From an uncultured Clostridia bacterium (GTDB lineage: Bacteria; Bacillota; Clostridia; Oscillospirales; Ruminococcaceae): 64,000 nucleotides of DNA. Shown here piece by piece: positions 1,905 through 62,615 of the stretch. The DNA lies in contig CALXBH010000007.1 in NCBI GenBank assembly GCA_944386475.1, positions 1-64,000 on the forward strand. Direction: 5' to 3'. Within the stretch, counting starts at the first letter, position 1. The number at the start of each line of letters is the position of its first letter. A program made the position numbers and the translations under genes. Under the pieces are notes generated by a model. That model did not search any database. It was not told the origin of the DNA and was given only the letters and a program-made list of their open reading frames with translations.

Positions 1905-2008
1905 AAGAGACGGTATTGGATAAAAGCTTAAAGGCTTTTGACAACAGCGGAAAAGACCGTTTTTGCGGAAGCCTTGGGCGAGCGTGCAAATCTGAGAGGA
2001 AAGTGAAC

Positions 2009-3166
2009 ATGGCAAAACAAACCCAAAGAGACGAGTATGTTGATATTTTAAGTAATGTCCCGCCCAAGAGCAAGAAAAAGAAAAAAAAGAAGATGCGCCC
2101 CCGCGACCGGGTGATTATGACGGTCTCTATTCTTTTAATTATTGTATCAGTTTGCACGGTGGGTGTAATCGGGCTTTTAAACTGGCGGCCGCTGATCGGT
2201 GACGACAGTACCCTTGATCCTAATATTACGACACCAGACACCATTAAAGAGAAAAGCGTCAATTTCCTGCTTTGCGGTATTGATTTCGAAGAAGGTACTG
2301 CCCGAGGGCATCTAACCGATATTATCATGGTTGTCAACTTTGACGTAGCGGGCAATAAGGTGAACATTCTTCAGATCCCCCGGGATACGCTGGTGGGCGA
2401 CGATGAAACGCCTACCGGCAAGATCAACGCGGTGTACGGCCGCTCTTCCAGCTACGGGGAAAACGGGATGGCGGGCCTTGCCAGTGTCATTAATGAAATG
2501 CTGGGGATCACCATCGACCATTACGCTACTGTGACCATGACGGCTTTCCGCAATGTGGTAGACGGCTTGGGCGGGGTAGAAGTGGATGTGCCCCAGACGA
2601 TTAATTTGGACGGCGTCACCATTCAGGCGGGAAAACAGACCTTAAACGGCAAACAGGCGGAAAAGTTTGTCCGCGTGCGGTATGGCGGCGGCCTTTATGA
2701 CGGCAGCGATACCACCCGTGTAAAGATGCAGCGGATCTTTTTAGCAGCTCTGGCAAAAGAGCTTACCGAGGTGAGCAGCGGTGAACTGGTGGGCCTGATC
2801 ACCAAGGTGATCGGCGACGTCACTACCGACATGAGCGTGGGCGAGGTCATCAATTTCGCCGGCGTGATGCAGAAGGTGGACTTGTCCAATATGTCCATCG
2901 CCATGCTGCCGGGACAGGCTGACTATTATCAGACGTCTTCTTATGGTTCCCAGTCGGTATATTACCTCCACCTAAACGAGACGCTACAGCTCGTCAATAA
3001 GTATTTCAGGACCTATCAGGATCCCCTGACGCCGGAAGATCTCAATATTATTGAGTACAGCGGAACGAAAGTGGATTACAATGATGACAATGAAAACGAT
3101 TTCCAGGAGATTATTGACGGTGTTAAACCGGGTGAGCACGCTGAAAGCTCTTCTCCCGGAGAATAA
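2009..3166 (+). CDS. LytR-CpsA-Psr (LCP) family cell-wall glycopolymer ligase
   Basis: LCP proteins attach teichoic acids, polysaccharides or other anionic polymers to peptidoglycan outside the membrane. The 385 residues start with a very basic cytoplasmic stretch (a run of lysines near residue 20) and one transmembrane helix (about 38-58), then the LCP domain. Visible features are the acidic DIIMVVNFD strand, the IPRDT motif with its conserved Arg and Asp, and a later LDGVTIQAGKQ..GKQAEKFVRVRY segment. The tail (from about 345) is low-complexity and acidic. The ATG at 2009 has AGAGGA upstream; a TTG at 1916 would add 31 unlikely residues. Confidence 0.93.
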   Translation: MAKQTQRDEYVDILSNVPPKSKKKKKKKMRPRDRVIMTVSILLIIVSVCTVGVIGLLNWRPLIGDDSTLDPNITTPDTIKEKSVNFLLCGIDFEEGTARGHLTDIIMVVNFDVAGNKVNILQIPRDTLVGDDETPTGKINAVYGRSSSYGENGMAGLASVINEMLGITIDHYATVTMTAFRNVVDGLGGVEVDVPQTINLDGVTIQAGKQTLNGKQAEKFVRVRYGGGLYDGSDTTRVKMQRIFLAALAKELTEVSSGELVGLITKVIGDVTTDMSVGEVINFAGVMQKVDLSNMSIAMLPGQADYYQTSSYGSQSVYYLHLNETLQLVNKYFRTYQDPLTPEDLNIIEYSGTKVDYNDDNENDFQEIIDGVKPGEHAESSSPGE

Positions 3167-3181
3167 ATAACCGCTGACAGG

Positions 3182-3216
3182 CGGCTTCCGGCAAACAAAA
3201 TGCCGGAAGCCGTTTT
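3182..3216 (+). terminator. Hairpin with short T-run between the LCP gene and rsfS
   Basis: Two perfect 12-base arms (3182-3193 and 3201-3212) with a 7-base loop are followed by TTTT. This is terminator-like, but the T-run is short and the rsfS ribosome-binding site follows within 10 bases, so it may only attenuate read-through into rsfS-leuS. Confidence 0.6.
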
Positions 3217-3227
3217 GAGAAAGGAAG

Positions 3228-3587
3228 ATGCAGTTGACTTCGCAAGAACTGACAAAGCACATCGTCCGAATACTGGACAGCAAAAAAGCGGAGGATATTA
3301 CGGCGATTAAAGTGCGGGATTTAACCATTGTCGCCGATTACTTTATCATCGCGTCCGGTACCAGCACCACCCAGGTTAAAGCTTTGGCCGACGAGGTGGA
3401 ATTTCAAATGGGCAAACAGGATATCCATCCCCAGCGGACCGAGGGTTACCCTTCAGGCGAATGGGTGGTTTTGGACTATCAGGATGTGATCGTTCATGTG
3501 TTTTACCGGGCGACCAGGGAGTTTTATTCTCTGGAGCGCCTGTGGGCGGACGGTGAACAGGTAAATATTGAGGATATGCTGAAATAG
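3228..3587 (+). CDS. rsfS: Ribosomal silencing factor RsfS
   Basis: RsfS binds ribosomal protein uL14 and blocks subunit joining when nutrients are scarce. The 119 residues show the family core: ITAIKVRDLTIVADYFIIASG near residue 25-45 and GYPSGEWVVLDYQDVIVHVF near 75-95, ending with YSLERLWADG. AAAGGAAG precedes the ATG. The position between an LCP gene and leuS is the standard order in this group. Confidence 0.95.
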   Translation: MQLTSQELTKHIVRILDSKKAEDITAIKVRDLTIVADYFIIASGTSTTQVKALADEVEFQMGKQDIHPQRTEGYPSGEWVVLDYQDVIVHVFYRATREFYSLERLWADGEQVNIEDMLK

Positions 3588-3609
3588 CAATTATAGGAGT
3601 TGAGCATCG

Positions 3610-6015
3610 TTGAAGTACAATTTTTCCGAAGTGGAGAAAAAGTGGCAAAAGATCTGGGAGGATAACAACACCTTTGCCGCGACCAATGATTACACAAAGC
3701 CGAAATATTACGCGCTGGTGGAGTTTCCTTATCCTTCGGGACAGGGACTTCATGTAGGGCATCCCCGTTCTTATACGGCGCTGGATATCGTCGCCAGAAA
3801 GCGGCGGCTTGAGGGCTATAACGTTTTGTACCCCATGGGATGGGATGCGTTTGGCCTGCCCACCGAAAATTTTGCCATCAAAAACAAGATCCACCCGGAA
3901 ATTGTGACCGAAAAAAATGTGGCCCATTTTAAGGAGCAGTTAAAATCTCTGGGCCTTTCCTTTGACTGGAACCGGGAGGTAAATACCACCGATCCTAACT
4001 ACTATAAATGGACCCAGTGGATTTTCATTCAGCTGTTTAAAAAAGGCCTCGCTTATAAAAAAGAGATGTCGGTCAACTGGTGCACCTCCTGCAAGGTGGT
4101 GCTGGCCAACGAAGAGGTGGTAGGCGGCGTGTGTGAGCGCTGCGGCGGCGAGGTCGTCCACAAGGTAAAATCCCAGTGGATGTTAAAGATCACCGAATAT
4201 GCCCAGCGGCTGCTGGACGATCTGGATCTGGTAGATTACATCGACCGGGTCAAGGTGTCCCAGCGCAACTGGATCGGCCGTTCCACCGGTGCGGAGGTGG
4301 AGTTTGGAACCACTCTGGGCGACACCTTCACCATTTACACCACCCGGCCGGACACCCTGTTCGGCGCCACCTATATGGTCATTTCTCCCGAGCATCCGCT
4401 GATTGAAAAATGGGCGGATAAAATCGGGAATATGGACGAGATCCGCGCCTATCAGGAAAAGGCCGCCAGGAAATCGGATTTTGAGCGCACCGAGGTTGCC
4501 AAAGAGAAAACCGGCGTGAAAATAGACGGGGTGATGGGGATCAACCCGGTGAACAACAAGGAGATCCCGATCTTTATCTCCGACTATGTGCTCATGTCCT
4601 ACGGAACCGGCGCGATCATGGCTGTCCCGGCCCATGATACCCGTGACTACGATTTTGCCAAAGCCTTTGACCTTCCCATTGTGGAGGTTGTCGCCGGCGG
4701 CGATATAGAAAAGGAAGCCTTTACCGATTGTGAGACCGGTATCATGGTCAATTCCGGGATGTTAAACGGCCTGTCGGTGGAGGATGCCAAAAAGAAGATT
4801 ATCTCCTGGCTGGAAGAGACCGGCAAGGGTCATCCCAAGGTAAACTTTAAGCTCAGGGACTGGGTGTTCTCCCGCCAGCGGTACTGGGGCGAGCCGATTC
4901 CCATTGTTTACTGTGAAAAATGCGGGTATGTTCCCCTCCCGGAGGAGGAGCTCCCCCTGCGCCTGCCTGAGGTGGAGTCCTATGAGCCCACCGACGACGG
5001 CGAATCTCCCCTGGCGGCGATGGAGGATTTTGTCAACACCACCTGCCCGCACTGCGGCGGTCCCGCCAAGCGGGAGACCGACACCATGCCTCAGTGGGCC
5101 GGGTCGTCCTGGTATTTCCTGCGGTACTGCGATCCTCATAACGATAAAGAGCTTGCCTCCAAGGAGGCTCTGGACTACTGGATGCCGGTAGACTGGTACA
5201 ACGGCGGCATGGAGCATACCACCCTGCACCTTTTGTATTCCCGGTTCTGGCATAAGTTTTTATACGATATCGGCGTGGTCAGCTGCAAGGAGCCTTATCA
5301 AAAGCGCACCAGCCACGGCATGATTCTGGGGGAAAACGGCGAAAAGATGAGCAAGTCCCGGGGGAATGTGGTCAATCCCGACGACATTGTGCGGGAGTAC
5401 GGCGCGGACACCATGCGGCTGTATGAAATGTTCATCGGCGACTTTGAAAAATCCGCTCCCTGGAGCTCCGCCAGCATCAAGGGCTGCAAACGGTTTTTGG
5501 ACCGCATCTGGAATCTTCAGGAGATCGTCACCCCCGAGGAAGGCTACCGTTCCACGCTGGAAGCTTCTATGCATAAGACCATCAAAAAGGTCACGGAGGA
5601 TATCGAAAACCTGAAATTCAACACCGCTATTGCAGCGATGATGGCTCTGCTTAACGAGTTTGCGGATTCCGGCTCTTTGACAAGGGGCGAATACAAGGAC
5701 TTCTTAATTATGCTCAATCCCTTTGCCCCCCATATCACCGAGGAGATCTACGAGCGCATGGGCTATGAAGGAATGCTCAACCAGCAGAAGTGGGTCACCT
5801 ATGATGAGAGCAAATGCAAGGACGACACCATTGAGATCGTGGCCCAGGTAAACGGCAAGATTAAATCCAAGCTGACCGTGGCGGCCAACGTGTCCAAAGA
5901 GGACGCCATCGCCCTGGCTAAAGAAGACGGCAAGATGAAAGAGGCTATGGACGGGAAAACGGTGGTCAAAGAGATCTATGTCCCCGGCAAGCTTGTGAAT
6001 ATCGTCGTCAAATAG
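3610..6015 (+). CDS. leuS: Leucyl-tRNA synthetase
   Basis: Class I aminoacyl-tRNA synthetase of 801 residues, full length for the bacterial type. The catalytic HIGH-type motif is in [16 protein letters not shown] near residue 40-55 and the KMSKS loop is [10 protein letters not shown] near 577-586. A zinc-type cluster with two CxxC pairs (CTSC and CERC, about 158-178) and the editing domain (residues ~225-420, with the [12 protein letters not shown] segment) are present. The C-terminus carries [12 protein letters not shown]. The start is TTG at 3610, with TAGGAG placed correctly upstream; [13 protein letters not shown] is the normal N-terminus. Confidence 0.98.
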
Positions 6016-6087
6016 TGTTTGCTGTCGCTGCGTCAAAAAATAGTTCGCTGTAATTTTTGTGCAATTCGTATAATGTTTGGGAAGTAC

Positions 6088-6116
6088 TTGACAAGCTGAT
6101 GCCAGAATTGTATAAT
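6088..6116 (+). promoter_or_regulatory. Sigma-70/SigA promoter of rpsU
   Basis: Consensus TTGACA (6088-6093) and TATAAT (6111-6116) are separated by 17 bp. The predicted start lies near 6123, giving a leader of about 50 bases to rpsU. This separates rpsU from the leuS operon. Confidence 0.9.
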
Positions 6117-6176
6117 AGATTTTGTTACAGTGATTATTGAAACCTCTGCCGCTGAGGCAAAGGGAGGGAATAGAAA

Positions 6177-6353
6177 ATGGCAGAAATTCGTATCAAAGAC
6201 AACGAATCTTTGGACAGCGCTTTAAGACGTTTTAAAAGATCTTGTGCGAAATCCGGCGTGCTTGCAGAAGTCCGCAAACGGGAGCATTACGAGAAACCGT
6301 CTGTAAGACGCAAGAAAAAGTCTGAAGCTGCTCGCAAACGCAAATATAAATAA
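6177..6353 (+). CDS. rpsU: Small ribosomal subunit protein bS21
   Basis: A 58-residue, strongly basic protein of the 30S platform near the anti-Shine-Dalgarno end of 16S rRNA. The sequence [20 protein letters not shown], then [21 protein letters not shown], is typical of Firmicutes S21. AGGGAGGG precedes the ATG. The gene is monocistronic, between a consensus promoter and a strong terminator. Confidence 0.97.
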
Positions 6354-6377
6354 TTTGCATCTGACGAAAAGCAACAA

Positions 6378-6413
6378 AAAGGCACGGGCAAGTTGTTTGC
6401 CCGTGCCTTTTTC
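6378..6413 (+). terminator. Rho-independent terminator of rpsU
   Basis: A 14-base perfect stem (6378-6391 with 6397-6410), loop of five bases, then TTCT; the A-rich left arm and T-rich right arm make it work on both strands. Confidence 0.9.
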
Positions 6414-6444
6414 TGTGCTTGTTCTAATCATTCCCCGGATAGAC

Positions 6445-6480
6445 AAAAAGTGTGGACGCCCAAAAGCGTCCACACTTTTT
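6445..6480 (-). terminator. Terminator of hsp20
   Basis: A 15-base perfect stem with a short loop, flanked by A5 on the left and T5 on the right, lies 13 bp past the hsp20 stop. Read on the minus strand it ends in T-rich sequence. It is probably bidirectional with the rpsU terminator next to it. Confidence 0.88.
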
Positions 6481-6492
6481 GTAGTTTGAAGA

Positions 6493-6918
6493 TTAGTCGA
6501 TGTCGATCCGGCGGGTGGGGGATTTTTTCTCCGGCTCTTTTTTCGGGAGAGTCAGCTCCAAAATACCATTATTGTATTTGGCGGAAATCTCGTCCGCCTT
6601 GATACCGGAGATGTCAAAGCTGCGGCTGAAGCTCCCATACCGGCGCTCCTGTTTGACATAATTGTCCTTCTCGTTTTTGATATCTTCCTTGTGCTCCGCT
6701 TGAATCATCAAACGGTCGCCGTCAATGTCGATTTTAATATCTTCTTTGTTAAAGCCGGGAAGCTCCGCCTCCAGAACATATTTATCCCCTTTATCAAGGA
6801 TATCGGTGTTGAAGGAGGGGAAGAGATTCCCCATATCTCCGAAGAAATCCTTTTCCAGATCGTTAAAATAGTTCGCAAGGCTACGACGTCTGCGGTCAAA
6901 GGGTGTTAAATCAAACAT
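6493..6918 (-). CDS. Hsp20/alpha-crystallin small heat-shock protein
   Basis: ATP-independent holdase chaperone of 141 residues. After an N-terminal arm rich in Phe and Asp (MFDLTPFDRRRRSLANYFND) comes the alpha-crystallin domain from about residue 38, with YVLEAELPGFNKEDIKIDIDGDRLMI and the closing strand YNNGILELTLPKKEPEKK (the A-x-x-x-n-GIL-type motif). The charged tail is normal. AGGAGG lies 8 bp before the ATG. A promoter about 110 bp upstream and a CIRCE operator beyond it point to heat-stress control by HrcA. Confidence 0.95.
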   Translation of the reverse strand: MFDLTPFDRRRRSLANYFNDLEKDFFGDMGNLFPSFNTDILDKGDKYVLEAELPGFNKEDIKIDIDGDRLMIQAEHKEDIKNEKDNYVKQERRYGSFSRSFDISGIKADEISAKYNNGILELTLPKKEPEKKSPTRRIDID

Positions 6919-7020
6919 ACAGAAAACCTCCTAACAAGATTCATTTATTTTGTTTGTAAAAATTCAAAGGGTTGCTGCTGCCATCCTGTGGCAGCTACCT
7001 TCTTTTTCCTTTTTACAAGT
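6919..7020 (-). other. Leader region of hsp20 with a small hairpin
   Basis: About 100 bases lie between the likely transcription start and the hsp20 ATG. They hold a 7-base inverted repeat (GCTGCCA with TGGCAGC, 6973-6991) far from the Shine-Dalgarno (AGGAGG at 6927-6932). No clear pairing that would sequester the ribosome-binding site was seen, so an RNA thermometer is not claimed. Confidence 0.4.
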
Positions 7021-7023
7021 TTT

Positions 7024-7051
7024 ATTATAAAATCCAATTGTTATCAATCAA
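7024..7051 (-). promoter_or_regulatory. Probable promoter of hsp20
   Basis: On the minus strand TTGATT (7046-7051) and TATAAT (7024-7029) are 16 bp apart. The -10 is a perfect match. It lies between the CIRCE element and the gene. Confidence 0.65.
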
Positions 7052-7079
7052 CAGTTAAAGCGTGAATAAACTTTTAATT

Positions 7080-7106
7080 TTAGCACTTAAGATAACAGAG
7101 TGCTAA
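7080..7106. promoter_or_regulatory. CIRCE element (HrcA operator)
   Basis: TTAGCACTT, nine bases, GAGTGCTAA: 17 of 18 arm positions match the CIRCE consensus (TTAGCACTC-N9-GAGTGCTAA), and the symmetry extends into flanking AATT/AATT. HrcA represses class I heat-shock genes through this site. It sits just past the DUF1622 stop and upstream of the proposed hsp20 promoter, not between promoter and gene as is usual. Confidence 0.9.
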
Positions 7107-7114
7107 AATTAAAG

Positions 7115-7456
7115 CTAAAATAATGTATTTGCTAAATCCTCCTGATGGGATTCCTCGTTTTTGATCTCCCAGTGGATTAATAAGGTGAGGGCTGCCCGCA
7201 GGGCGATGATCGCCGCCACCGTGAGGATCTCGGAAAATTCCCGCACCACCACCGTGCGCAGAATTTCGCTGCCCAGCTTGAATTCCAGGGCTAAAGCCAT
7301 TCCCTTGGCCAGATTGAGCCGGGTAAATCTGCTGCGCTTTATCAGGCCAATGAGCCCCTTGATACCTGCCAGGATAATTACAAGCACGCCCAAAAGCTCA
7401 AATACTAAGATAGCGGCGTCGGTAATCTGGTTTAGAATCGTGTGAAGGAACTCCAT
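7115..7456 (-). CDS. DUF1622 family membrane protein
   Basis: A 113-residue integral membrane protein of the DUF1622 family; function unknown. Three hydrophobic segments are visible: about residues 13-36 (AAILVFELLGVLVIILAG), a middle amphipathic stretch with the conserved LARGM-like KGMALALEFKLGSEILRT, and a helix near 75-95. The ATG at 7454-7456 follows AGGAGG at 5 bp; the longer frame up to 7546 runs through the purL terminator and is rejected. Confidence 0.82.
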   Translation of the reverse strand: MEFLHTILNQITDAAILVFELLGVLVIILAGIKGLIGLIKRSRFTRLNLAKGMALALEFKLGSEILRTVVVREFSEILTVAAIIALRAALTLLIHWEIKNEESHQEDLANTLF

Positions 7457-7500
7457 ACTGTCCTCCTTTTTATAGCGTCCAACATTCCGGAAGAGATAAA

Positions 7501-7536
7501 AAAATAACGGAAAGCGAATTCGCTTTCCGTTATTTT
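7501..7536 (-). terminator. Terminator of purL
   Basis: A 36-base perfect palindrome (18-base arms, no separate loop) lies 39 bp past the purL stop and continues into T7 on the minus strand. Confidence 0.9.
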
Positions 7537-7574
7537 GTGTATTCATTGGGAGAAATATGTAACAGGCCTTTTCC

Positions 7575-10500
7575 TTACCGGAAATATTTTACGCCGTTTG
7601 CAAAGATTCGCTGATCCTTTTCACCAGGAACGTTTTGATACAGGCCCAAACCGGTGCGCTCGCTGTGGCCCATCTTGCCGAAGACCCGCCCGTCGGGGGA
7701 GGTGATGCCTTCGATGGCGCAGACCGAGGTGTTGGGGTTGTAGCGAATATCATAGGTGGGCTTCCCGGCGAGATCCACATACTGGGTGGCGATCTGGCCG
7801 TTTTCCGCCATCTGTGCGATCAGCTCGTCGGAGGCCACAAACCGCCCCTCGCCGTGGGAGATCGCCACGGTGTGGGTTTCGCCCACCTGCGCGTCGGCCA
7901 GCCAGGGGGATTTGTTGGAGCACACCCGGGTGTTTACCAGCATTGACTGGTGGCGATGGATGGTGTTAAAGGTCAGGGTGGGGGAGTGATCCTCCATATC
8001 CACGATCTTTCCAAAGGGAACCAGTCCCAATTTAATCAGCGCCTGGAACCCGTTGCAGATACCCAGCATCAGGCCGTCCCGGTTATTAAGCAGCTCATGC
8101 ACCGCCTCTTTGATAGAGGGGTTGCGGAAGAAAGCGGTGATGAATTTACCCGAGCCGTCCGGCTCGTCGCCGCCCGAGAAGCCGCCGGGGATCATGACGA
8201 TCTGGCTCTGCTTGATCTTTTGGGTGAAGGCTGCCACAGATTCTTCGATGTCCCGGCTGGTAAGGTTGCGGATGACGAAAATTTCCGGTTCGCCGCCGGC
8301 CTTTTCAAAGGCCCGGGCGGTGTCGTATTCGCAGTTGGTGCCGGGGAACACCGGGATAAGGACCCGGGGCTTGGCCGCTTTGATGGCGGCAGATTTCGCT
8401 TTGCCCTCAAAGGCGTACACAGGGGGAACGCTCTCTGTTTCTTCTACCCGGCAGGGGAAGATGGGTTCCAGCTTGTTTTGATAGCTGGGCAAAAGCTCCC
8501 CTAACGGCATCTGGCTGCCGCCGGCTTTGATGGCAGCCTCCGCCGTGGTTTCGCCCAGCAAAACAGCGCCCTCGGGGAGAGCGGCGTCTTTTTCCAGCTC
8601 GATGACAAAGCCGCCTGCGACACCGTTCCACAAAAGCTCCTGCTCCGGCAGGGAGGCAAAGGTAAAGCCGATGTCGTTACCAATGGCCATTTTAAACACC
8701 GCTTCGGCGGTGCCGCCGTAGGTAAGCGCCCAGACCGACAGGGCTTTTTTGTCTTTAATCAGCTCCTGCACAGCGGAGAAAACCGCTTTGACGCTGTCAA
8801 AGCAGGGCATGTTGTTTTCATACTTAGGCAGCAGCATAACGACCTTGTGGCCAGGGGCTTTAAACTCCGGCGAGACGATGTTGCCGGTGCCGGTGACCGA
8901 CACCGCAAAGGAGGTCAGGGTGGGGGGAACGTCCAGATCTTCAAAGCTTCCGCTCATGGAGTCCTTTCCGCCGATGGAGCCGATGCCCAGAGAAAGCTGG
9001 GCCTTTAACGCGCCCAGCAGGGCGGACATGGGCTGACCCCAACGCTTGGGATCCCCTTTGGTGCGCTCAAAGTATTCCTGAAAGGTGAGCCAGCTGTGCT
9101 GGTAGTCGCCGCCGATGGCGACCACCTTGGCCACCGACTCGATGACCGCGTACATGGCGCCGTAGAACGGATCCTGGGCGCTGATATAGGGATTATATCC
9201 CCAGCCCATCAAAGAGCAGGTGGTGGTCTCGCCGGTGAGCACCGGGAGCTTGGCCGCCATCGCCTGGGCGGGAGTCGTCTGGTTTTTGCCGCCGAAAGGC
9301 ATCAGCACCGTGCCCGCGCCAATGGTGGAGTCAAACCGTTCTACCAGCCCTTTCTGGGAGCAGGTGTTTAGGTCGGACAGATGCTCCTGCCAGCCCTCCA
9401 GGGTGTTGTCCCGGTGGTTGACAGGGGAAAGGGTGTGCCGGGGAATCTCAATTTCGGTGTGCTTGGAAGCGCCGTTGGAATTTAAAAATTCCCGGGACAG
9501 GTTGACGATCACGTTGCCCCGCCAGTCCATCACCAGCCGGGGCTCTTTAGTGACCACCGCCACCTTGGTGGCCATCAGGTTTTCCTCGTGGGCTTTGTCA
9601 ATAAACGCCTGGGTGTCCGCTTCCCGGATCACCACCGCCATGCACTCCTGGGATTCGCTGATGGCAAGCTCGGTGCCGTCTAATCCCTCGTATTTTTTGG
9701 GGACGGCGTCCAGATGGATGGAAAGCCCGTCCGCCAGCTCGCCGATAGCTACCGAAACGCCGCCGGCGCCGAAGTCGTTGCAGCGCTTAATCATCCGGGT
9801 GACCTCGGGGTTGCGGAACAGCCGCTGGAGTTTGCGCTCCTCCGGCGCGTTACCCTTCTGCACCTCTGCGCCGCAGCTCTCCAAGGATTCCAGCGTGTGG
9901 GATTTGGAAGAACCGGTGGCGCCGCCGCAGCCATCCCGGCCGGTTTTACCGCCCAGTAAGATCACTACATCGCCGGGGGCGGGAACCTCCCGGATGACGT
10001 TTTTAGCAGGGGCCGCGCCCACTACCGCGCCGATCTCCATGCGCTTGGCCGCATAGCCGGGGTGGTAAACCTCCGCCACATGGCCGGTGGCAAGGCCGAT
10101 CTGGTTGCCGTAGGAGCTGTATCCGGCCGCCGCGCCCACGGTGATCTTCCGCTGGGGGAGCTTTCCTTTCATGGTGTCTTTCACCGGCACCAAAGGATCC
10201 GCCGCGCCGGTGACCCGCATGGCCTGGTACACATAGCTGCGCCCCGAAAGAGGATCCCGGATAGCGCCGCCCAAACAGGTGGCCGCGCCGCCGAAGGGCT
10301 CGATCTCGGTGGGGTGGTTGTGGGTTTCGTTTTTAAACATTAAAAGCCAGTCTTCTTTTTGGCCGTCGATGTCCACGTCGATCTTCACCGAGCAGGCGTT
10401 GATCTCCTCCGACTCGTCCATATCCTTTAAAATGCCGTCTTTTTTGAGCTTTTTCGCGCCGATGACCGCCAGATCCATCAGGGTGATAGGCTTGTCCGTG

Positions 10501-11288
10501 CGGCCTTTATAAAGCTCCTCCCGGACCGAGAGGTATTCGTCATAAACCGCTTTAACCGCCGGATCCTCAATGGACACCTTGTCGATGTTGGTTAAAAAGG
10601 TGGTGTGGCGGCAGTGATCCGACCAGTAGGTGTCGATCATCCGGATCTCGGTAATGGTGGGATCCCGGTGCTCAGTGTTTTTAAAATAGTCCTGGCAGAA
10701 TTTGATGTCGTCCAGATCCATGGCCAGCCCATAGTGGTTCACAAATTCCTGCAAACCGGCCTCGTCAAGGGCGGTAAAGCCGTTCAGAGTCTCCACCGTG
10801 GTAGGCAGGTCGTAATTCATCTTCAGCGTCTCATAGGGCGCAAAAGCGGCCTCCCGGCTTTCCACGGGGTTGATGAGATAGTGCTTGATCTTTATAAAAT
10901 CCTCATCCGAGATCACACCGGACAACAGATAGACCTGGGCGGAACGCACGGTGGGGCGGTCTTTTTGGGTCATCAGGCTGATGCACTGCTCGCAGGAATC
11001 CGCCCGCTGGTCAAACTGGCCGGGGAGGTATTCCACCGCAAACATCCGCTGCCCCTGCTGGGGTTTGGGGAGCTCGCTGTAGGTGACGTCCACTGCCGGC
11101 TCGGAAAACACGGTGGTGGATGCCATGTTAAAAACGGTTTCGTCGATGCCTTCCACATCGTAGCGGTTGATCACCCGCACGTCGGTGACGCCCTTCATCT
11201 GCAGGGAGGAACGCAAATCGTGCAAAACGCTTTTGGCCTCCACGGCAAACGCCGGCTTTTTTTCCACATAGATACGAAAAACGCTCAT
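7575..11288 (-). CDS. purL: Phosphoribosylformylglycinamidine synthase (single-chain FGAM synthase)
   Basis: Converts FGAR, glutamine and ATP to FGAM in purine synthesis. The 1237-residue chain joins a PurS-like N-terminus (VFRIYVEKKPAFAVEA), a linker, the ATP-binding PurL core (HNHPTEIEPFGGAATCLGG; DFGAGGVSVAIGELADG) and a C-terminal class I glutaminase with PGTNCEYDTARAF and the nucleophile segment MLGICNGFQAL. This is the large fused form, also found in Proteobacteria and many Clostridia. The ATG at 11286-11288 follows GGAGA at 8 bp; an alternative ATG at 11303 adds five residues. mtaB ends 53 bp upstream with no terminator seen, so the two may be cotranscribed. Confidence 0.96.
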   Translation of the reverse strand: MSVFRIYVEKKPAFAVEAKSVLHDLRSSLQMKGVTDVRVINRYDVEGIDETVFNMASTTVFSEPAVDVTYSELPKPQQGQRMFAVEYLPGQFDQRADSCEQCISLMTQKDRPTVRSAQVYLLSGVISDEDFIKIKHYLINPVESREAAFAPYETLKMNYDLPTTVETLNGFTALDEAGLQEFVNHYGLAMDLDDIKFCQDYFKNTEHRDPTITEIRMIDTYWSDHCRHTTFLTNIDKVSIEDPAVKAVYDEYLSVREELYKGRTDKPITLMDLAVIGAKKLKKDGILKDMDESEEINACSVKIDVDIDGQKEDWLLMFKNETHNHPTEIEPFGGAATCLGGAIRDPLSGRSYVYQAMRVTGAADPLVPVKDTMKGKLPQRKITVGAAAGYSSYGNQIGLATGHVAEVYHPGYAAKRMEIGAVVGAAPAKNVIREVPAPGDVVILLGGKTGRDGCGGATGSSKSHTLESLESCGAEVQKGNAPEERKLQRLFRNPEVTRMIKRCNDFGAGGVSVAIGELADGLSIHLDAVPKKYEGLDGTELAISESQECMAVVIREADTQAFIDKAHEENLMATKVAVVTKEPRLVMDWRGNVIVNLSREFLNSNGASKHTEIEIPRHTLSPVNHRDNTLEGWQEHLSDLNTCSQKGLVERFDSTIGAGTVLMPFGGKNQTTPAQAMAAKLPVLTGETTTCSLMGWGYNPYISAQDPFYGAMYAVIESVAKVVAIGGDYQHSWLTFQEYFERTKGDPKRWGQPMSALLGALKAQLSLGIGSIGGKDSMSGSFEDLDVPPTLTSFAVSVTGTGNIVSPEFKAPGHKVVMLLPKYENNMPCFDSVKAVFSAVQELIKDKKALSVWALTYGGTAEAVFKMAIGNDIGFTFASLPEQELLWNGVAGGFVIELEKDAALPEGAVLLGETTAEAAIKAGGSQMPLGELLPSYQNKLEPIFPCRVEETESVPPVYAFEGKAKSAAIKAAKPRVLIPVFPGTNCEYDTARAFEKAGGEPEIFVIRNLTSRDIEESVAAFTQKIKQSQIVMIPGGFSGGDEPDGSGKFITAFFRNPSIKEAVHELLNNRDGLMLGICNGFQALIKLGLVPFGKIVDMEDHSPTLTFNTIHRHQSMLVNTRVCSNKSPWLADAQVGETHTVAISHGEGRFVASDELIAQMAENGQIATQYVDLAGKPTYDIRYNPNTSVCAIEGITSPDGRVFGKMGHSERTGLGLYQNVPGEKDQRIFANGVKYFR

Positions 11289-11341
11289 TCTCTCGGTCTC
11301 CATTCTGCCTTTTACGGCGATATCGTTATGATAGGGTACCC

Positions 11342-12703
11342 TTAACAGTCAGCGGCTCCGCCGGAAACCACCGCCGTGCAGCGTCCGCCGGACACTCCTG
11401 TTATTTTAACACATTTTACCTGGCCGCACAAGTTGGCCTCGGGGGTTTCCGCCTGTCCGCCGGAGGGGATAAAATCAGCGGGGGAGGCGGTAGCCACCCG
11501 GCAGGGGGTGTAGTTTTTGGTGTAGCCGTCGTAGATGCCGGGCGCTATTTTAGTTTCCAAAAGGACTTCCTCGGTCTTTCCCACCTGGGACTGCAAAAAA
11601 GCAAGGCGGGTTTCCTCGGTTTGCCGGATCATCTCGGCGCTGCGCCGCTCCTTTTCCCGCTGGGGGATCTGATCGGGATATCCGGCGGCCCGGGTGCCCT
11701 CCCGGCGGGAGTAGGCGAACACATGGACCTTGGCAAACCCGATTTGCTTGGCAAACTCTACCGACTGCAAAAACTCCTCTTCGGTTTCCCCGGGAAATCC
11801 CACCATGATGTCGGTGGTGATGGAGGCGTTTTCAAACCGGGCGCGCAGCCTGGCCACAATGTCCGCATATTCCTCGGGGGTGTAGTGGCGGTTCATCCGC
11901 TTCAGGGTGGAAGATGAGCCGCTTTGCAGGGACAGATGAAACTGGGGACAGAACTTGTCCTGGGCGGCAAACCGGTCCATATCCTTGTCGGTCAAAAGCT
12001 CCGGCTCCAAGGACCCCAGCCGCACCCGCGTGATACCGGGGACGCCGCAGGCGGCCTCCACCGCGTCGGCCAGCCGCAGGCCGCATTCCTTTCCATAGGA
12101 GGAAAGGTTGATCCCCACCAAGACGACTTCCTTATAGCCGTTTTGGGCCAGCTCGGTAAGCTCTTCGGTGAGATCCGGCAGCGCTTTGGAGCGGATGGGT
12201 CCCCGGGCGGTGGGGATGATGCAGTAGCTGCAATACCGGTCGCAGCCGTCTTCGATTTTTACAAACGCCCGGGTGTGCTCGGAAAAGCGGGGCGAGCTCA
12301 TTTTTTCAAAGGCCTCCCCCCGTTTGTGCGGGGTGATGGAAATGACCCTTTCCCCAGTGGCCATGGCTTTTTTGACGCAGTCGATCAGCGCCGCCCGGTT
12401 GTAAGAGCCGGTGATAACGTCCGCTTCGGGCAGGTGCTTTGCCGCATCGGGGAACGCCTGGGGAAAACAGCCGGTTAAGGCTACCACCGCCCCGGGATGC
12501 TCCCGCTTAAAGCGGCGGAGGATCTGCCGGGTCTTTTTGTCCCCCATGGCGGTGACGGTGCAGGAGTTAATCACATACGCCTCCGCCTCTTCCTCCGGCG
12601 GGACGACGGTAAAGCCCTCCTCCGCAAAACGGGAGGAAAGGGCTTCGGTTTCATATTGATTCACCTTGCAGCCCAAGGTGTAAAATGCGATCCGTTTGAC
12701 CAT
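11342..12703 (-). CDS. mtaB: tRNA N6-threonylcarbamoyladenosine (t6A37) methylthiotransferase
   Basis: Radical SAM enzyme that adds a methylthio group to t6A37 in tRNA. The 453 residues start with the MtaB-type MVKRIAFYTLGCKVNQYETE. The methylthiotransferase domain holds the auxiliary-cluster cysteines (Cys12, Cys48, Cys79) and the radical SAM domain has CDRYCSYC (Cys154, 158, 161). A short TRAM-like C-terminus follows from about 385. The LGCKVNQYE start and IIPTARG block favour MtaB over MiaB. The frame upstream of 12703 is open but unlike the family. Confidence 0.94.
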   Translation of the reverse strand: MVKRIAFYTLGCKVNQYETEALSSRFAEEGFTVVPPEEEAEAYVINSCTVTAMGDKKTRQILRRFKREHPGAVVALTGCFPQAFPDAAKHLPEADVITGSYNRAALIDCVKKAMATGERVISITPHKRGEAFEKMSSPRFSEHTRAFVKIEDGCDRYCSYCIIPTARGPIRSKALPDLTEELTELAQNGYKEVVLVGINLSSYGKECGLRLADAVEAACGVPGITRVRLGSLEPELLTDKDMDRFAAQDKFCPQFHLSLQSGSSSTLKRMNRHYTPEEYADIVARLRARFENASITTDIMVGFPGETEEEFLQSVEFAKQIGFAKVHVFAYSRREGTRAAGYPDQIPQREKERRSAEMIRQTEETRLAFLQSQVGKTEEVLLETKIAPGIYDGYTKNYTPCRVATASPADFIPSGGQAETPEANLCGQVKCVKITGVSGGRCTAVVSGGAADC

Positions 12704-12782
12704 ATAAAGGAAACCCTTTCTAAAATCTGTCGTAAAAATGTTTCCTAGGAAATATCCACAAAGAAAAATTTCTTCCTTTAGT

Positions 12783-12811
12783 ATTATAATAGATTTACGC
12801 AGCCTTGACAA
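12783..12811 (-). promoter_or_regulatory. Promoter of mtaB (and possibly purL)
   Basis: Minus-strand TTGTCA (12806-12811) and TATAAT (12783-12788) are 17 bp apart, with a leader of about 70 bases to mtaB. Confidence 0.8.
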
Positions 12812-12820
12812 TGATATTTG

Positions 12821-12849
12821 TTGACTAAAATAAAAGGGGGTGGTATAGT
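12821..12849 (+). promoter_or_regulatory. Promoter of the HPr-like gene
   Basis: TTGACT (12821-12826) and TATAGT (12844-12849) are 17 bp apart. The predicted leader of about 80 bases holds two small hairpins (near 12869-12882 and 12891-12904) and then TTGGAGGG before the ATG. No known riboswitch fold was recognised. Confidence 0.75.
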
Positions 12850-12938
12850 ATAACTATCGGAAATGTCTGCTGACGGCAGGAAAGTTTTCCGCTGGCAAGC
12901 GGACAGTTCTAATCTTACACAATTTGGAGGGTTTATCC

Positions 12939-13169
12939 ATGAAGAGTTTTACGATCATGCTCAATACTATTAATGACGTTAAAGATTTTGTCAACATCGT
13001 CGCCAAGTACGATTATGACATCGATCTGATCTCCGGAAGATACGCTATCGACGCCAAATCCATCATGGGTATTTTCAGCCTGGATCTTTCCAAGCCCATT
13101 ACAGTCAAGGCCCACACGGACAACGGCGATGATCTGGCAGAAGAACTTAAAAAATTTGTTGCTGAATAA
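12939..13169 (+). CDS. HPr-like protein lacking the phosphorylatable histidine
   Basis: A 76-residue HPr-fold protein. The segment KYDYDIDL...GRYAIDAKSIMGIFSL aligns with HPr around the regulatory serine, and Ser41 in AKSIMG corresponds to Ser46. The loop that carries His15 in phosphocarriers (GIHARPA) reads NTINDVKDF here, about three residues shorter and without histidine. It therefore cannot pass phosphate in the phosphotransferase system as HPr does. By analogy with Crh it could act as a regulatory partner of HPr kinase or CcpA (inference). The ATG at 12939 follows TTGGAGGG. Monocistronic. Confidence 0.85.
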   Translation: MKSFTIMLNTINDVKDFVNIVAKYDYDIDLISGRYAIDAKSIMGIFSLDLSKPITVKAHTDNGDDLAEELKKFVAE

Positions 13170-13179
13170 AGAAAATGCG

Positions 13180-13206
13180 GCGCGCTGTTTTTACAGCGCG
13201 CTTTTT
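13180..13206 (+). terminator. Terminator of the HPr-like gene
   Basis: Perfect 8-base GC-rich stem (GCGCGCTG with CAGCGCGC) 10 bp after the stop, then T5. Confidence 0.9.
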
Positions 13207-13310
13207 ATTTAGTCATAACCGCCTCCAAGAGAGGTTATGGCTTTCCTTCATCTGTGCCGGTTTCTCTCGCATCGGACAGGAAAGACACATTTTTTGACGG
13301 AGATAAGGCC

Positions 13311-13985
13311 ATGTCAAAAAGAAAGAAGATCATCTTATCGCTTGCAATACTGCTTATACTTACAGCAGGCTGCTGCCTGTACGCCATGTGGTATTATTTC
13401 ATCGGCACCAGCAGCGCGCCGGTGGAGGCTAAAGGAAACGCCGATTTTCACATCGCGGATTTTCACAGCGCGGTGGACAAGGACGGGGACGGGATTGACG
13501 ATCAGTCGGATATCCTCATGGGAGCCAGGGAATATATCGCCACCCAGCCCAGATACAAAAGCAAGTATTATGACACAGGCTATCCCGACGACGGATATGG
13601 GGTGTGCACCGACGTGGTGGCTAACGCCCTGCGCAGCGCGGGCTATGATTTGATGCAGCTGGTTTACGAGGATGTTACGGAAAATCCGGAGGGATATGCT
13701 ATCGATCAGCCGGATAAAAACATCGATTTCCGCCGGGTGCGGAACCTAAAGGTCTATTTAAAACACACGGCTGTCTCCCTCACCACCGATATCCAGCAGA
13801 TCGACCAGTGGCAGGGCGGGGATATCGTGGTTTTTGACACTCACATCGGTATTGTTTCAGACAAGCGCAACGACCGGGGCGTGCCCTATGTCATCCATCA
13901 TAACGACCCGTTCCAGGCCTCCTACGAGCAAGATATCCTGGAGAGCCGGGACGATATCACCGGCCATTACCGGATCAGCGAGTAA
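13311..13985 (+). CDS. DUF1287 family secreted or membrane-anchored protein
   Basis: A 224-residue protein of the DUF1287 family (NlpC/P60-like fold by family relation; function not established). A basic N-terminus and one hydrophobic segment (about 7-27) suggest a signal anchor. The body carries GVCTDVVANALRSAGYD, with the likely catalytic Cys, and later GDIVVFDTHIGIVSDKR, with the His of a Cys/His pair, so it may be a hydrolase acting on the cell wall. The ATG at 13311 follows GGAGATAAGG. A D,D-carboxypeptidase gene starts 73 bp downstream. Confidence 0.85.
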   Translation: MSKRKKIILSLAILLILTAGCCLYAMWYYFIGTSSAPVEAKGNADFHIADFHSAVDKDGDGIDDQSDILMGAREYIATQPRYKSKYYDTGYPDDGYGVCTDVVANALRSAGYDLMQLVYEDVTENPEGYAIDQPDKNIDFRRVRNLKVYLKHTAVSLTTDIQQIDQWQGGDIVVFDTHIGIVSDKRNDRGVPYVIHHNDPFQASYEQDILESRDDITGHYRISE

Positions 13986-14058
13986 TGCCCCGCCGCCGGG
14001 CATGGAATGCCCTTTTCCCGCATATAGTTTCAAAAAAGGGGAAAGGAACGTCTGCGCT

Positions 14059-59117: not shown

Positions 59118-59141
59118 TTATTGTCTAAAATACCGTTTCGG
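59118..59141 (-). repeat. Rubrerythrin 3'-end remnant 4 (most degenerate)
   Basis: 24 bases that match the other remnants at about 19 positions and encode PKRYFRQ-stop on the minus strand, against LKRYFGK-stop in copies 1 and 2. It lies between a small membrane protein gene and a terminator. Confidence 0.5.
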
Positions 59142-59618: not shown

Positions 59619-59666
59619 GTATTTGCCCAAATACCGTTTCAGCAGCCGGAAAACGCTTTGCCATGG
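59619..59666 (-). repeat. Rubrerythrin 3'-end remnant 3
   Basis: About 48 bases encoding HGKAFSG...LLKRYLGK on the minus strand, with a one-base deletion in the middle and the stop codon changed to TAC. Similar to copy 2 at about 43 of 49 positions. Lies directly after the SGNH hydrolase gene. Confidence 0.8.
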
Positions 59667-59678
59667 ATTTTAAGCGGT

Positions 59679-60332
59679 TTATCTGGCAACGAAATACTTG
59701 GCGATCTCCTGCGCCACCAGCTGATGGCCTGCCGCAGTCGGATGATTGACATGGGAGAGATACCGTGTTAGCTCCTCCGGTTCCGAAATATTGCGCTCGA
59801 ACGCCCTGAAGCTGTCAGCCAGAGCTACGTCATACTGGCCGGCAATGTCTCGCACCTGTTGGGCGTGCTGTACAAGCTGCTGCCAAAGTTCATTTTGTTC
59901 ATAATAGGAATTGTCCCAGGTAGGGGTACACAAAATCACCTTGCTGTTTTGCTCCAAAGCTCTTTGGAGCATACTCTCCCATGCGCTGCGGGCCTTGCTT
60001 AAACCAATGTGGCGATCGTTTAAGCTGTAGTCAATGACCAGTACATCCGGCTTGTGAGGCAGGACATCGCTTTCAAAACGCTCTGCTCCGCCTGCGGAGG
60101 TTTCGCCGCCGATAGCGGTTACGATCATGTTGATGACCGCAAAGGGAAACCGCTCCTTTACCATCGTATGCAATAGATGGGGGTAGGCGTGAAACGTGTC
60201 AATATACGGTGTTGCAAAATAGCCGGCAGGCACACTATGCCCGTGGCATACGATATTGATAGTGCGGTTATGGGGCCACTGTTTTGCCATTTCGTCCAGC
60301 AAAGAGTTTAGATAGGAAATTCCCTGTATCAT
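59679..60332 (-). CDS. SGNH/GDSL-type hydrolase
   Basis: A 217-residue SGNH-family esterase or lipase-like protein. Block I reads NIVCHGHSVPAGY (catalytic Ser in GHS instead of GDS), block II TAIGGETSAGGAERF, block III DYSLNDRH with the Asn, and block V LSHVNHPTAAGHQLVA with the Asp/His pair reading NHP. No signal peptide is seen, so it is probably cytoplasmic. ATG 60332 follows CGGAGG. Unit 3 of the rubrerythrin-tail array. Confidence 0.85.
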   Translation of the reverse strand: MIQGISYLNSLLDEMAKQWPHNRTINIVCHGHSVPAGYFATPYIDTFHAYPHLLHTMVKERFPFAVINMIVTAIGGETSAGGAERFESDVLPHKPDVLVIDYSLNDRHIGLSKARSAWESMLQRALEQNSKVILCTPTWDNSYYEQNELWQQLVQHAQQVRDIAGQYDVALADSFRAFERNISEPEELTRYLSHVNHPTAAGHQLVAQEIAKYFVAR

Positions 60333-60490: not shown

Positions 60491-60550
60491 TTATTTGCCG
60501 AAATACCGTTTCAGCAGGCCGGCAAACGCTCTGCCATGCCGTGCTTCGTC
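60491..60550 (-). repeat. Rubrerythrin 3'-end remnant 2
   Basis: 60 bases encoding DEARHGRAFAGLLKRYFGK and stop on the minus strand, without the rest of the gene. Matches remnant 1 at 57 of 60 bases. The resident intact gene ends GLLKRYFK with quite different codons. Confidence 0.92.
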
Positions 60551-60567
60551 ATAAAAATCCGAATGGC

Positions 60568-61017
60568 TTAATGTTCTGTCTGTCTTTTTGTGTAATCAAT
60601 ATGTCCTAATAACTCGATGCTGTCCATATATTTGTCATAGGCATGTTTCCCGGACTTTTTGATAGCTTTGTCCCTAACCACCTGCACTAAGCATCGATTC
60701 GTTTGGTTGTAAAACATAATTCTCATAGACACTTCCATAATAGCAGAGTAGCCTGAAATTGCAATCGTTCCCATCTCTTCCTTGGCGACTGAAGAGTAAT
60801 GAATTTCGTTATTTGCTCTTTTCAACGCCGCTGTTACATCTTTCAAACCACTGCCCGCAATTTTTTCCACTTCCAGTGCCTGTATAGTGGATTTTGAGAA
60901 ATCATCCTCAATCACAGCATTTATCATGGATAACATTTGTTCCCAGCCGATTGGCCAAGTTAGCTCATAATACAGTGTTGTAAACACTTTTCCTTTTTCA
61001 ATTTTTAGAAGTTGCAT
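60568..61017 (-). CDS. Protein of unknown function (unit 2)
   Basis: A 149-residue soluble protein with no motif I recognise. It begins MQLLKIEKGKVFTTLYYELTWPIGWEQML, carries an alternating helix/strand pattern, and ends with CLVQVVRDKAIKKSGKHAYDKYMDSIELLG. Codon use is A/T-richer than the housekeeping genes. ATG 61017 is 6 bp after GAGGTG. It sits between two terminators and is followed by rubrerythrin remnant 2. Confidence 0.65.
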   Translation of the reverse strand: MQLLKIEKGKVFTTLYYELTWPIGWEQMLSMINAVIEDDFSKSTIQALEVEKIAGSGLKDVTAALKRANNEIHYSSVAKEEMGTIAISGYSAIMEVSMRIMFYNQTNRCLVQVVRDKAIKKSGKHAYDKYMDSIELLGHIDYTKRQTEH

Positions 61018-61162
61018 TGAACTCACCTCAACAAAAAATAGGTTGCCTTCATGACAGCACGACCTAATGGTTTTGCACCCCTTACGATCCTATTCATCAG
61101 ATATCGTAATCAATTCTACAAACGCTGTAATGAGCCACAAGAACCCCTTTTTATATAAAAAG

Positions 61163-61190
61163 AGTATGCCATCAAAAATGATAGCATACT
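61163..61190 (-). terminator. Terminator after rubrerythrin remnant 1
   Basis: A 12-base stem with one mismatch (AGTATGCCATCA with TGATAGCATACT). Its left half and the bases up to the remnant stop are nearly the same as those after the intact rubrerythrin gene. Confidence 0.85.
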
Positions 61191-61223
61191 CCCTCATTTT
61201 TTGCAAGAAAGTTGATTTATTTG
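61180..61223 (-). repeat. 44-bp block duplicated downstream of rubrerythrin (copy A)
   Basis: Matches 61974-62017 at 42 of 44 bases: half of the terminator stem, the spacer TTGCAAGAAAGTTGAT, the stop codon and one more codon. Beyond this the coding part changes to a different allele. Confidence 0.92.
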
Positions 61224-61279
61224 CCGAAATACCGTTTCAGAAGGCCGGCAAACGCTCTGCCGTGGCGTGCTTCGTCGCG
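61217..61279 (-). repeat. Rubrerythrin 3'-end remnant 1
   Basis: 63 bases encoding RDEARHGRAFAGLLKRYFGK and stop on the minus strand, equivalent to the last 20 codons of rubrerythrin ([19 protein letters not shown] in the intact gene). Nothing upstream in the frame resembles rubrerythrin. Follows the zinc-ribbon membrane protein gene by about 60 bp. Confidence 0.92.
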
Positions 61280-61337
61280 GAATAACAATGAAAAAATCGC
61301 ATAGAATAAGCATTTTATAAAATAACTCACACTCGAC

Positions 61338-61934
61338 TCACACCAAAAGTTTGCCATTTCCAACACATTTCTTATCATCATAAATTAAAAATTCCGTAGG
61401 TGCAAAGGTGCAGTCTATGGGTTTGATTACTCTCACAAAGTATTTATTCAAATTATCATTCGTTATTTCTGCAATGTATTCTCTATGGATATTTACTTTA
61501 TTTAATTCATTGCTTGTCGGCTTTAACATATACACGCTACCTGAAGTTATTTCTTTAGAATCAATTTCTACAGGAAATAATATATCATTATAATCTCCGT
61601 CAAGGCGGGTAAGGACACAGTTTTTTCCCGAAATAAGAGTCAAAGCAAAAGAAAATAGAATCATAAAGAGGAGTAATATGAAAACAAATATGTACATTTT
61701 AGCAATTAACAAAACAACCAATGCAAACGCCAAAATCAAATAAATCGGTATAAGGTATTTCAGTATTTTTTTCCCTTGTAAAGTGCTCCTTCTTTCAATT
61801 TCACGGTGGCAATGCGGACAGTTGAAAAATATAGTATTTCTTATAAATGCGCCAATTCCATAATCTTTACCGGTATATTTTTGATAATTAGAAAATGTAG
61901 GTTCTCCGCAATATGGACAGTAGTATTTTTTCAA
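61338..61934 (-). CDS. Zinc-ribbon membrane protein, unknown function (unit 1)
   Basis: A 198-residue protein: an N-terminal zinc ribbon with CPYCG (6-9) and CPHCH (39-43), two adjacent transmembrane helices (about 57-78 and 80-100), and a C-terminal domain of about 95 residues without known motif. Strongly A/T-rich, unlike the surrounding genes, so likely acquired. TTG start at 61934 with AGGAGG at 8 bp. It starts only 24 bp after the rubrerythrin terminator with no room for a promoter, so it depends on read-through from rubrerythrin. Confidence 0.8.
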   Translation of the reverse strand: MKKYYCPYCGEPTFSNYQKYTGKDYGIGAFIRNTIFFNCPHCHREIERRSTLQGKKILKYLIPIYLILAFALVVLLIAKMYIFVFILLLFMILFSFALTLISGKNCVLTRLDGDYNDILFPVEIDSKEITSGSVYMLKPTSNELNKVNIHREYIAEITNDNLNKYFVRVIKPIDCTFAPTEFLIYDDKKCVGNGKLLV

Positions 61935-61957
61935 AAAACATCCCTCCTAAAATAAAA

Positions 61958-61984
61958 AGTATGCTATCTAAAGGATAGCATACT
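61958..61984 (-). terminator. Terminator of rubrerythrin
   Basis: An 11-base perfect stem (AGTATGCTATC with GATAGCATACT), running into T5ATTTT on the minus strand. Confidence 0.9.
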
Positions 61985-62017
61985 CCCTAATATTTTGCAA
62001 GAAAGTTGATTTATTTG
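61974..62017 (-). repeat. 44-bp block downstream of rubrerythrin (copy B)
   Basis: Counterpart of 61180-61223, identical at 42 of 44 bases, covering the 3' end of the intact rubrerythrin gene and its terminator. Confidence 0.92.
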
Positions 62018-62553
62018 AAGTATCTCTTCAGCAGACCCTCAAATGCCTTGCCGTGACGGGCCTCGTCACGAGCCATCTCATGAACAGTGTCATGGATTGC
62101 ATCCAGATTCAAAGCTTTAGCGCGTTTTGCCAGATCGGTTTTGCCAGCGGTAGCGCCGTTTTCAGCCTCTACGCGCATCTGCAGGTTTTTCTCGGTGCTG
62201 TCGGTGACAACTTCGCCCAGAAGCTCGGCAAATTTCGCGGCATGCTCCGCCTCTTCCCAAGCGGCTTTCTCCCAGTACAGGCCGATCTCAGGATAGCCTT
62301 CCCGATGGGCAACCCGGGCCATCGCCAGGTACATACCAACCTCGGTGCATTCGCCGTTAAAGTTAGCGCGCAGATCTTCCAGGATATCCTCCGGAACGCC
62401 TTTGGCAACGCCCACAACATGCTCGGAAGCCCAAGTCATATCGCCGCCCTGCTCAACAAATTTCTCTTTGGGAGCTTTACACTGGGGGCAAAAATCGGGA
62501 GCCTCTGCTCCTTCATAAACATAACCACATACAGAACATACGAACTTTTTCAT
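62011..62553 (-). CDS. Reverse-type rubrerythrin
   Basis: A 180-residue peroxide-reducing protein of anaerobes. The rubredoxin domain is at the N-terminus (CSVC at 6-9 and CPQC at 22-25), the reverse of classical rubrerythrin. The di-iron ferritin-like domain follows, with [24 protein letters not shown] and the C-terminal [18 protein letters not shown] 62553 follows TGGAGGAA. Its 3' end seeds a series of remnant copies further downstream. Confidence 0.95.
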
Positions 62554-62615
62554 GAACGATTCCTCCATTCAGTGTTGTCGTTTTAGTCATCCAGAATCAC
62601 ATCTGGTTTACTAAA

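Follow-up and report, generated by a model that had tools for sequence, protein, structure and literature searches.

Rubrerythrin gene 3′ ends as a probable attachment site for tyrosine-integrase elements and stacked single-gene units in Ruminococcaceae

Tandem accretion and cis-mobilizable elements have already been described; according to PMC5704250, CIMEs are decayed ICEs or IMEs that keep attL and attR and are formed by accretion. According to the same source, elements inserted in tRNA genes or in the 3′ ends of protein genes supply their target with a new end, and IMEs are known in the 3′ ends of the protein genes rplL, rpmE, rpmG, rpsI, guaA, and trmE. In addition, 15 of the ssrA genomic islands of Dehalococcoides are without an integration module and have been proposed to be cis-mobilizable (PMC3146451). 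Here, we analyzed a window (i.e., the whole 64,000-nucleotide stretch of DNA, from an uncultured Clostridia bacterium of the Ruminococcaceae) in which displaced copies of the end of a rubrerythrin gene (rbr) lie behind the intact gene. Our data suggest that the 3′ end of rbr (~60 bases) is very probably an integrase attachment site, at which elements supply new ends, stack, and displace the old ones.

Displaced rubrerythrin ends in the window

The features of the locus are listed below in the direction of rbr transcription, with G numbers designating the genomes used for comparison.

62011..62568, minus strand: rubrerythrin gene (rbr), the probable integration target; ORF with rubrerythrin/nigerythrin and rubredoxin-like NCBIfam matches below the cut-offs; sole full-length copy of its type
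62011..62067, minus strand: current 3′ end of rbr (GACGA to stop), which may have been supplied by the newest unit, e1; nearest of 53 intact genes is the element-supplied end of G180; groups with the G180 and G045 ends
61935..62010, minus strand: e1 left arm, with spacer, terminator-like hairpin (z -4.6), and ribosome-binding site; close alignment of ~80 bases with the left arm of G045
61338..61934, minus strand: e1 cargo, a 198-aa protein with N-terminal CxxC zinc-ribbon-like motifs and hydrophobic stretches (ORF and profile searches)
61277..61345, minus strand: e1 right arm, in which GTGTGAG is present twice at an 11-base spacing (candidate integrase arm sites); aligned with the G045 right arm
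61217..61276, minus strand: T1, displaced rbr 3′ end beginning at GACGA, apparently supplied earlier by unit e2
61139..61216, minus strand: e2 left arm with terminator-like hairpin (z -7.0), homologous to the G045 and e1 left arms
61064..61138, minus strand: start of a DUF3795 gene, decayed in e2, with an intact counterpart in G045 (PF12675), from the alignment with the G045 gene; BLASTN 78% over window positions 61098-61276
60568..61026, minus strand: e2 cargo, a 152-aa protein with no family match (ORF and profile searches)
60491..60550, minus strand: T2, older displaced rbr 3′ end beginning at GACGA; nearest of 53 is the G083 rbr end (BLASTN 85%)
59679..60332, minus strand: SGNH/GDSL hydrolase gene between T2 and T3 (PF13472, E 8e-22), possibly native; 68% DNA homologue on another contig in G083
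59620..59665, minus strand: T3, degenerate tail with a one-base deletion; score 75 against a background of 31
59118..59139, minus strand: possible tail T4, very degenerate and not significant; score 28, at background

T1 and T2 are identical at 57 of 60 bases (95%), and both translate as DEARHGRAFAGLLKRYFGK-stop, the GK-stop form; the C-terminus of the resident rbr differs, with an identity in the same register of 65% without gaps and 72% with gaps. A first-pass annotation had reported this pairing, together with 42 identical bases out of 44 over the stop codon and terminator arm between the first tail and the intact gene, and all of these figures were confirmed; the 44 bases lie inside a repeat family, D3, whose copies at 61176-61223 and 61970-62017 agree at 45 of 48 positions. 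When the T2 60-mer was scored across the window, it gave 120 for itself, 108 for T1, 75 for T3, 49 for the resident rbr, and at most 31 elsewhere, and T3 is clearly real against that background. T4, proposed as a fourth tail from repeat family D2, was rejected at its background score.

Every tail lies downstream of rbr on the same strand, and each interval holds a single gene, coding for the 198-aa protein (rbr to T1), the 152-aa protein (T1 to T2), and the GDSL hydrolase (T2 to T3). Decay of the tails grows with distance from rbr, T1 and T2 being intact and T3 frameshifted. Apart from GDSL, the cargo proteins of the window gave no notable defence, phage, NCBIfam, or PDB match. The G083 homologue of the GDSL gene lies at C26:51707-51984, and the window copy may thus be a native gene caught between tails. 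Rfam matches were limited to sub-threshold hits to eukaryotic families, which we took as chance. The window genome contains one full-length rbr of the resident type, its remaining matches being distant, and a second, locally duplicated rbr gene with the GK-stop end, which the first-pass annotation had named as the finding that would refute its reading, is excluded in this 97%-complete assembly.

An integrase clade beside the tails, and the small units

A C-terminal peptide search of 198 family genomes revealed additional same-strand tails in G024, G045, G120, and G180, and a wider tail search added G230, G301, and G284; genomes with two tail matches at E ≤ 1 but a weak second match (E > 0.05) were left out of the count. 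A tyrosine integrase adjoins the distal tail in G024, G180, G230, and G301, and in these same four genomes a full-length rbr stands beside the element (i.e., the target gene was restored after insertion). In several full elements, short direct repeats are present at one end and again at the other. When the G180 integrase was searched against 397 family genomes (E ≤ 1e-45), five matched (G180, G301, G230, G381, and G024); all five adjoin a displaced rbr tail, which strongly supports rbr as the target of this integrase clade. Four of the five genomes had already been found independently by the tail search, G381 being the exception. PF00589/PF14659 domains were detected in G024 and G180, and a phrog_1 integrase in G024, G180, G230, and G381; the G301 integrase is 84% identical to that of G180. 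Four of the elements are islands. In the fifth, G381, the rbr tail directly adjoins the integrase and an endolysin gene lies further inward, and since an endolysin gene accompanies the integrase, we regard this element as a prophage. Within the family, the rbr 3′ end is in all likelihood the attachment site of this tyrosine-integrase clade.

The individual loci show further features. The G381 prophage at the rbr 3′ end (locus L101, G381:C185:30000-44000, positions 6452-14001) carries an integrase that shares 53% identity with the one in the G180 island. The rbr-to-tail element of G230 (L091, G230:C8:54500-68000, positions 1788-11663) hosts an apparently complete phosphate uptake and sensing cluster (PstSCAB, PhoU, and PhoB/PhoR-like, with functions taken from translations only), which adjoins the integrase and a helicase-like gene. 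The G180 element (L043, G180:C22, ~11000-11270 and 2180-2345) supplies the rbr end plus the rubredoxin gene that follows, and a displaced copy of both persists at its far end. G120 (L045, G120:C36, 105-2198) has two additional rbr tails, which enclose a glycosidase-like gene, a GNAT-like gene, and no integrase; its first tail contains a ~30-40-base insertion with a small inverted repeat.

We postulate that the attachment site comprises the last ~60 bases of rbr, from the Asp-Glu-Ala-Arg codons to the stop. An incoming element would recombine within the first ~32 bases after GACGA, providing rbr with a new 3′ end and with the element's terminator, and the old end would be shifted to the opposite side of the element. 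In the window, at least two insertions, and probably three, would have taken place, always at rbr, with the T3 side first, then e2, and then e1, and with decay increasing away from rbr; the product would be a tandem of short integrase-less units (cis-mobilizable-like) parted by the displaced ends T1, T2, and T3. The observations behind this scheme are the fixed tail starts, the integrase clade at the tails, an element-free sister genome that matches a displaced end, and arms conserved in two genera.

An integrase of the rbr clade may have placed the window units. Several findings count against the scheme. The units e1 and e2 have one ORF each, neither matching integrase or mobilization families, and the window genome contains only two distant integrases (27% and 22% identical to the rbr-type integrase). 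The right arm is not recognizable in e2. T1 and T2 are near-identical, yet the DNA past their stops differs; because of their 95% identity, e2 would have come from a near relative or have captured a local end.

The small units are recognizable by their arms. The left arm consists of a spacer, a strong hairpin, a T run, and the ribosome-binding site AGGAGGGAT (the latter in e1 and G045), and it occurs in e1, e2, and one unit of G045 (Candidatus Falkowella caecavicola), with no others in the 397 family genomes or the genome collection. The e1 and G045 units have common left and right arms with different genes between them, in two genera; in the ~400-bp G045 unit, a DUF3795 gene occupies the place of the e1 cargo. 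Their right arms align with a score of 51, against a maximum of 32 in 2000 shuffles. The e1 gene begins where the left arm ends, and it terminates within the right arm, with its stop codon in the first GTGTGAG there. In e2, the left arm and the decayed start of the same DUF3795 gene are kept, with no recognizable right arm. A viral collection scanned with the arm pattern, two integrases, and two cargo proteins contained no useful relatives.

Judged by their arms, the e1, e2, and G045 units could be either remnants of one element that decayed differently or cassettes with exchangeable genes. Within the attachment-site scheme, we see an even chance that they are dead remnants of integrase-bearing islands, stripped in place to one gene each, that never moved as single-gene units. 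This would agree with the general CIME model (PMC5704250), with the decayed DUF3795 start and missing right arm of e2, and with the degenerate state of part of the tails; what it explains less readily is that e1 and the G045 unit both have one tightly fitted gene and have both kept their two arms, since it is less probable that each decayed separately into the same frame. It seems unlikely that the units are true mobile gene cassettes, in which fixed arms (left terminator and ribosome-binding site, right paired arm sites) would surround one exchangeable ORF, and which would be moved in trans by rbr integrases and stacked behind rubrerythrin, integron-like but independent of integrons. Should single-gene units indeed be mobile in trans, few cassettes with a phage-type integrase would be as small.

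Crossover position and the origin of the ends

The first-pass annotation had placed a recombination point at the stop codon. The apparent switch between T1 and the resident gene is indeed at the stop, as their alignment falls apart upstream of CAAATAA, but the crossover itself appears to lie elsewhere. The tails of T1, T2, G024, G045, G180, and G381 share one start, GACGA(A/G)GC (codons Asp-Glu-Ala-Arg), 57-60 bases upstream of the stop, with unrelated DNA further upstream, and because six element ends share this start, we place the crossover in the GACGA region and not at the stop. Identity between rbr and tail begins at GACGA in G024, where it continues past the stop, and in G180, where it spans 32 bases; it reaches slightly further upstream in G230 and G301, and the att identity blocks of these four genomes intersect in the 32 bases after GACGA.

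A crossover at the stop, by which rbr would keep its native end and each unit would bring a distal mimic tail of a foreign lineage, could account for a switch within one codon of the stop and for the post-stop arm conserved in e1, e2, and G045. We nevertheless consider it distinctly unlikely given the single start base of the six tails, the G180 tails, which differ in codons already ahead of the stop and of which the distal one is matched by the sister genome G094, and T2, which is nearest to the native end of the sister species G083. In the attachment-site scheme, the switch at the stop is the place where a selected coding end meets element DNA that is free to differ. The arms of e1 and e2 match because they come from one element family, and the coding ends of T1 and the resident gene differ because they come from different rbr lineages. 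T1 would be the end supplied by e2, followed by the e2 arm, and the resident end would be that supplied by e1, followed by the e1 arm, with both coding ends held to a working C-terminus as far as the stop and not beyond. Local duplication of rbr ends, or homologous recombination between them, with no site-specific enzyme would fit the homology of tails and gene and the near-identity of T1 and T2, but is very improbable in view of the start base fixed across genera, the integrases adjoining tails, the unrelated DNA between the copies, and a tail next to the gene that is 72% identical to it and not identical.

G094, an element-free genome of the same genus as G180, matches the G180 distal tail at GGACTxCTCAACCG and in the bases immediately behind the stop, a match that rests on few sites in tails of only 57-60 bases. 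Given this match, we interpret the distal tail of G180 as the host's own end, now displaced, and the end that its rbr has today as element-supplied. In the window, T2 has its nearest counterpart among 53 intact genes in G083 (0.85), whose rbr ends NRYFGK-stop, the native GK-stop form, and an intact gene in G029 has the identical 19-residue end. The resident rbr end is nearest, among the same 53, to the end that the element supplied in G180 (0.912), although the identity of the two gene bodies is only 0.67; the pair gives the second largest of 1540 tail-versus-body identity residuals (z 3.5, on 57 bases and hence few sites), which is suggestive rather than conclusive of an element-supplied resident end. 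A short tree, with many forks unresolved, groups T1 with T2 (support 97/91) and the resident end with those of G180 and G045 (95/94). The resident rbr's present end is probably the newcomer.

A tree with the rbr 3′ ends of relatives and a GK-stop rbr gene in another genome are what the first-pass annotation had proposed to look for, and both were obtained. Its view that the tails form a lineage of their own has to be turned around: they are not foreign to the genus, and the resident end is the odd one. Its broader idea, that units carry an rbr 3′ tail with them and that recombination is involved, was borne out, in that tails mark mobile units and point to site-specific recombination at rbr. 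The genus sample, with one other genome, contained no strain of the window species that is free of the elements. The largest of the 1540 residuals (body 0.67, tail 0.91) belongs to G010 and G139 (loci L017 and L025) and may mark another element-supplied rbr end.

Relation to known systems

If this scheme holds, islands and a prophage in Clostridia would repeatedly have docked at the 3′ end of rubrerythrin, an oxidative-stress gene that is widespread among anaerobes. A displaced tail beginning at GACGA offers a clean diagnostic for insertion at rbr. In addition, foreign DNA can make up the last ~20 codons of an intact gene, and gene trees and comparisons of gene ends are misled by it.

Like CIMEs, as these are described in PMC5704250, the window units lie in tandem at one attachment site in a gene 3′ end, carry no integration or transfer genes (one ORF per unit), and leave their target intact via a supplied end. 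More specifically, the rbr end, T1, and T2, all starting from GACGA, flank e1 and e2 as attL and attR copies would, and five integrase-bearing rbr elements in the family represent autonomous relatives at the same site. In contrast to CIMEs, the target is rubrerythrin, and the units measure only ~0.4-0.7 kb and contain a single gene. Membership of the window units among the rbr-integrase elements themselves would call for a clade integrase in the unit or genome; the units contain none, and the best match in the genome is 27% identical.

The rbr elements of G024, G180, G230, G301, and G381, in which a tyrosine integrase domain lies beside the att site, are comparable to protein-gene IMEs, which likewise use a tyrosine integrase and restore the 3′ end of a conserved gene (PMC5704250). 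Rubrerythrin is not among the IME target genes in the table of PMC5704250, as far as the available part goes, and a full-text literature search for rubrerythrin and integration, with most subscription journals outside its coverage, returned no attachment-site report.

The Dehalococcoides ssrA islands also form a tandem series downstream of one target, each bounded by a 3′-end repeat (PMC3146451). They involve a serine recombinase, a tmRNA target, and a 20-bp repeat, and are larger (PMC3146451), whereas the rbr case involves tyrosine integrases, a protein-coding target, and a ~60-bp repeat. Integron cassettes resemble the window units as arrays of co-oriented one-gene units, with one site per unit, added beside a fixed site. 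Unlike in integrons, however, no integron integrase accompanies the array (positions 56-64 kb of the window contain no integrase ORF at all), the unit ends are rbr tails and arms that by eye are not attC-like, and the units bring their own terminator-like hairpin and ribosome-binding site, with arms that resemble phage-type att arms. Rubrerythrin as a docking gene and the one-gene unit size appear to be undescribed; the process is known in kind.
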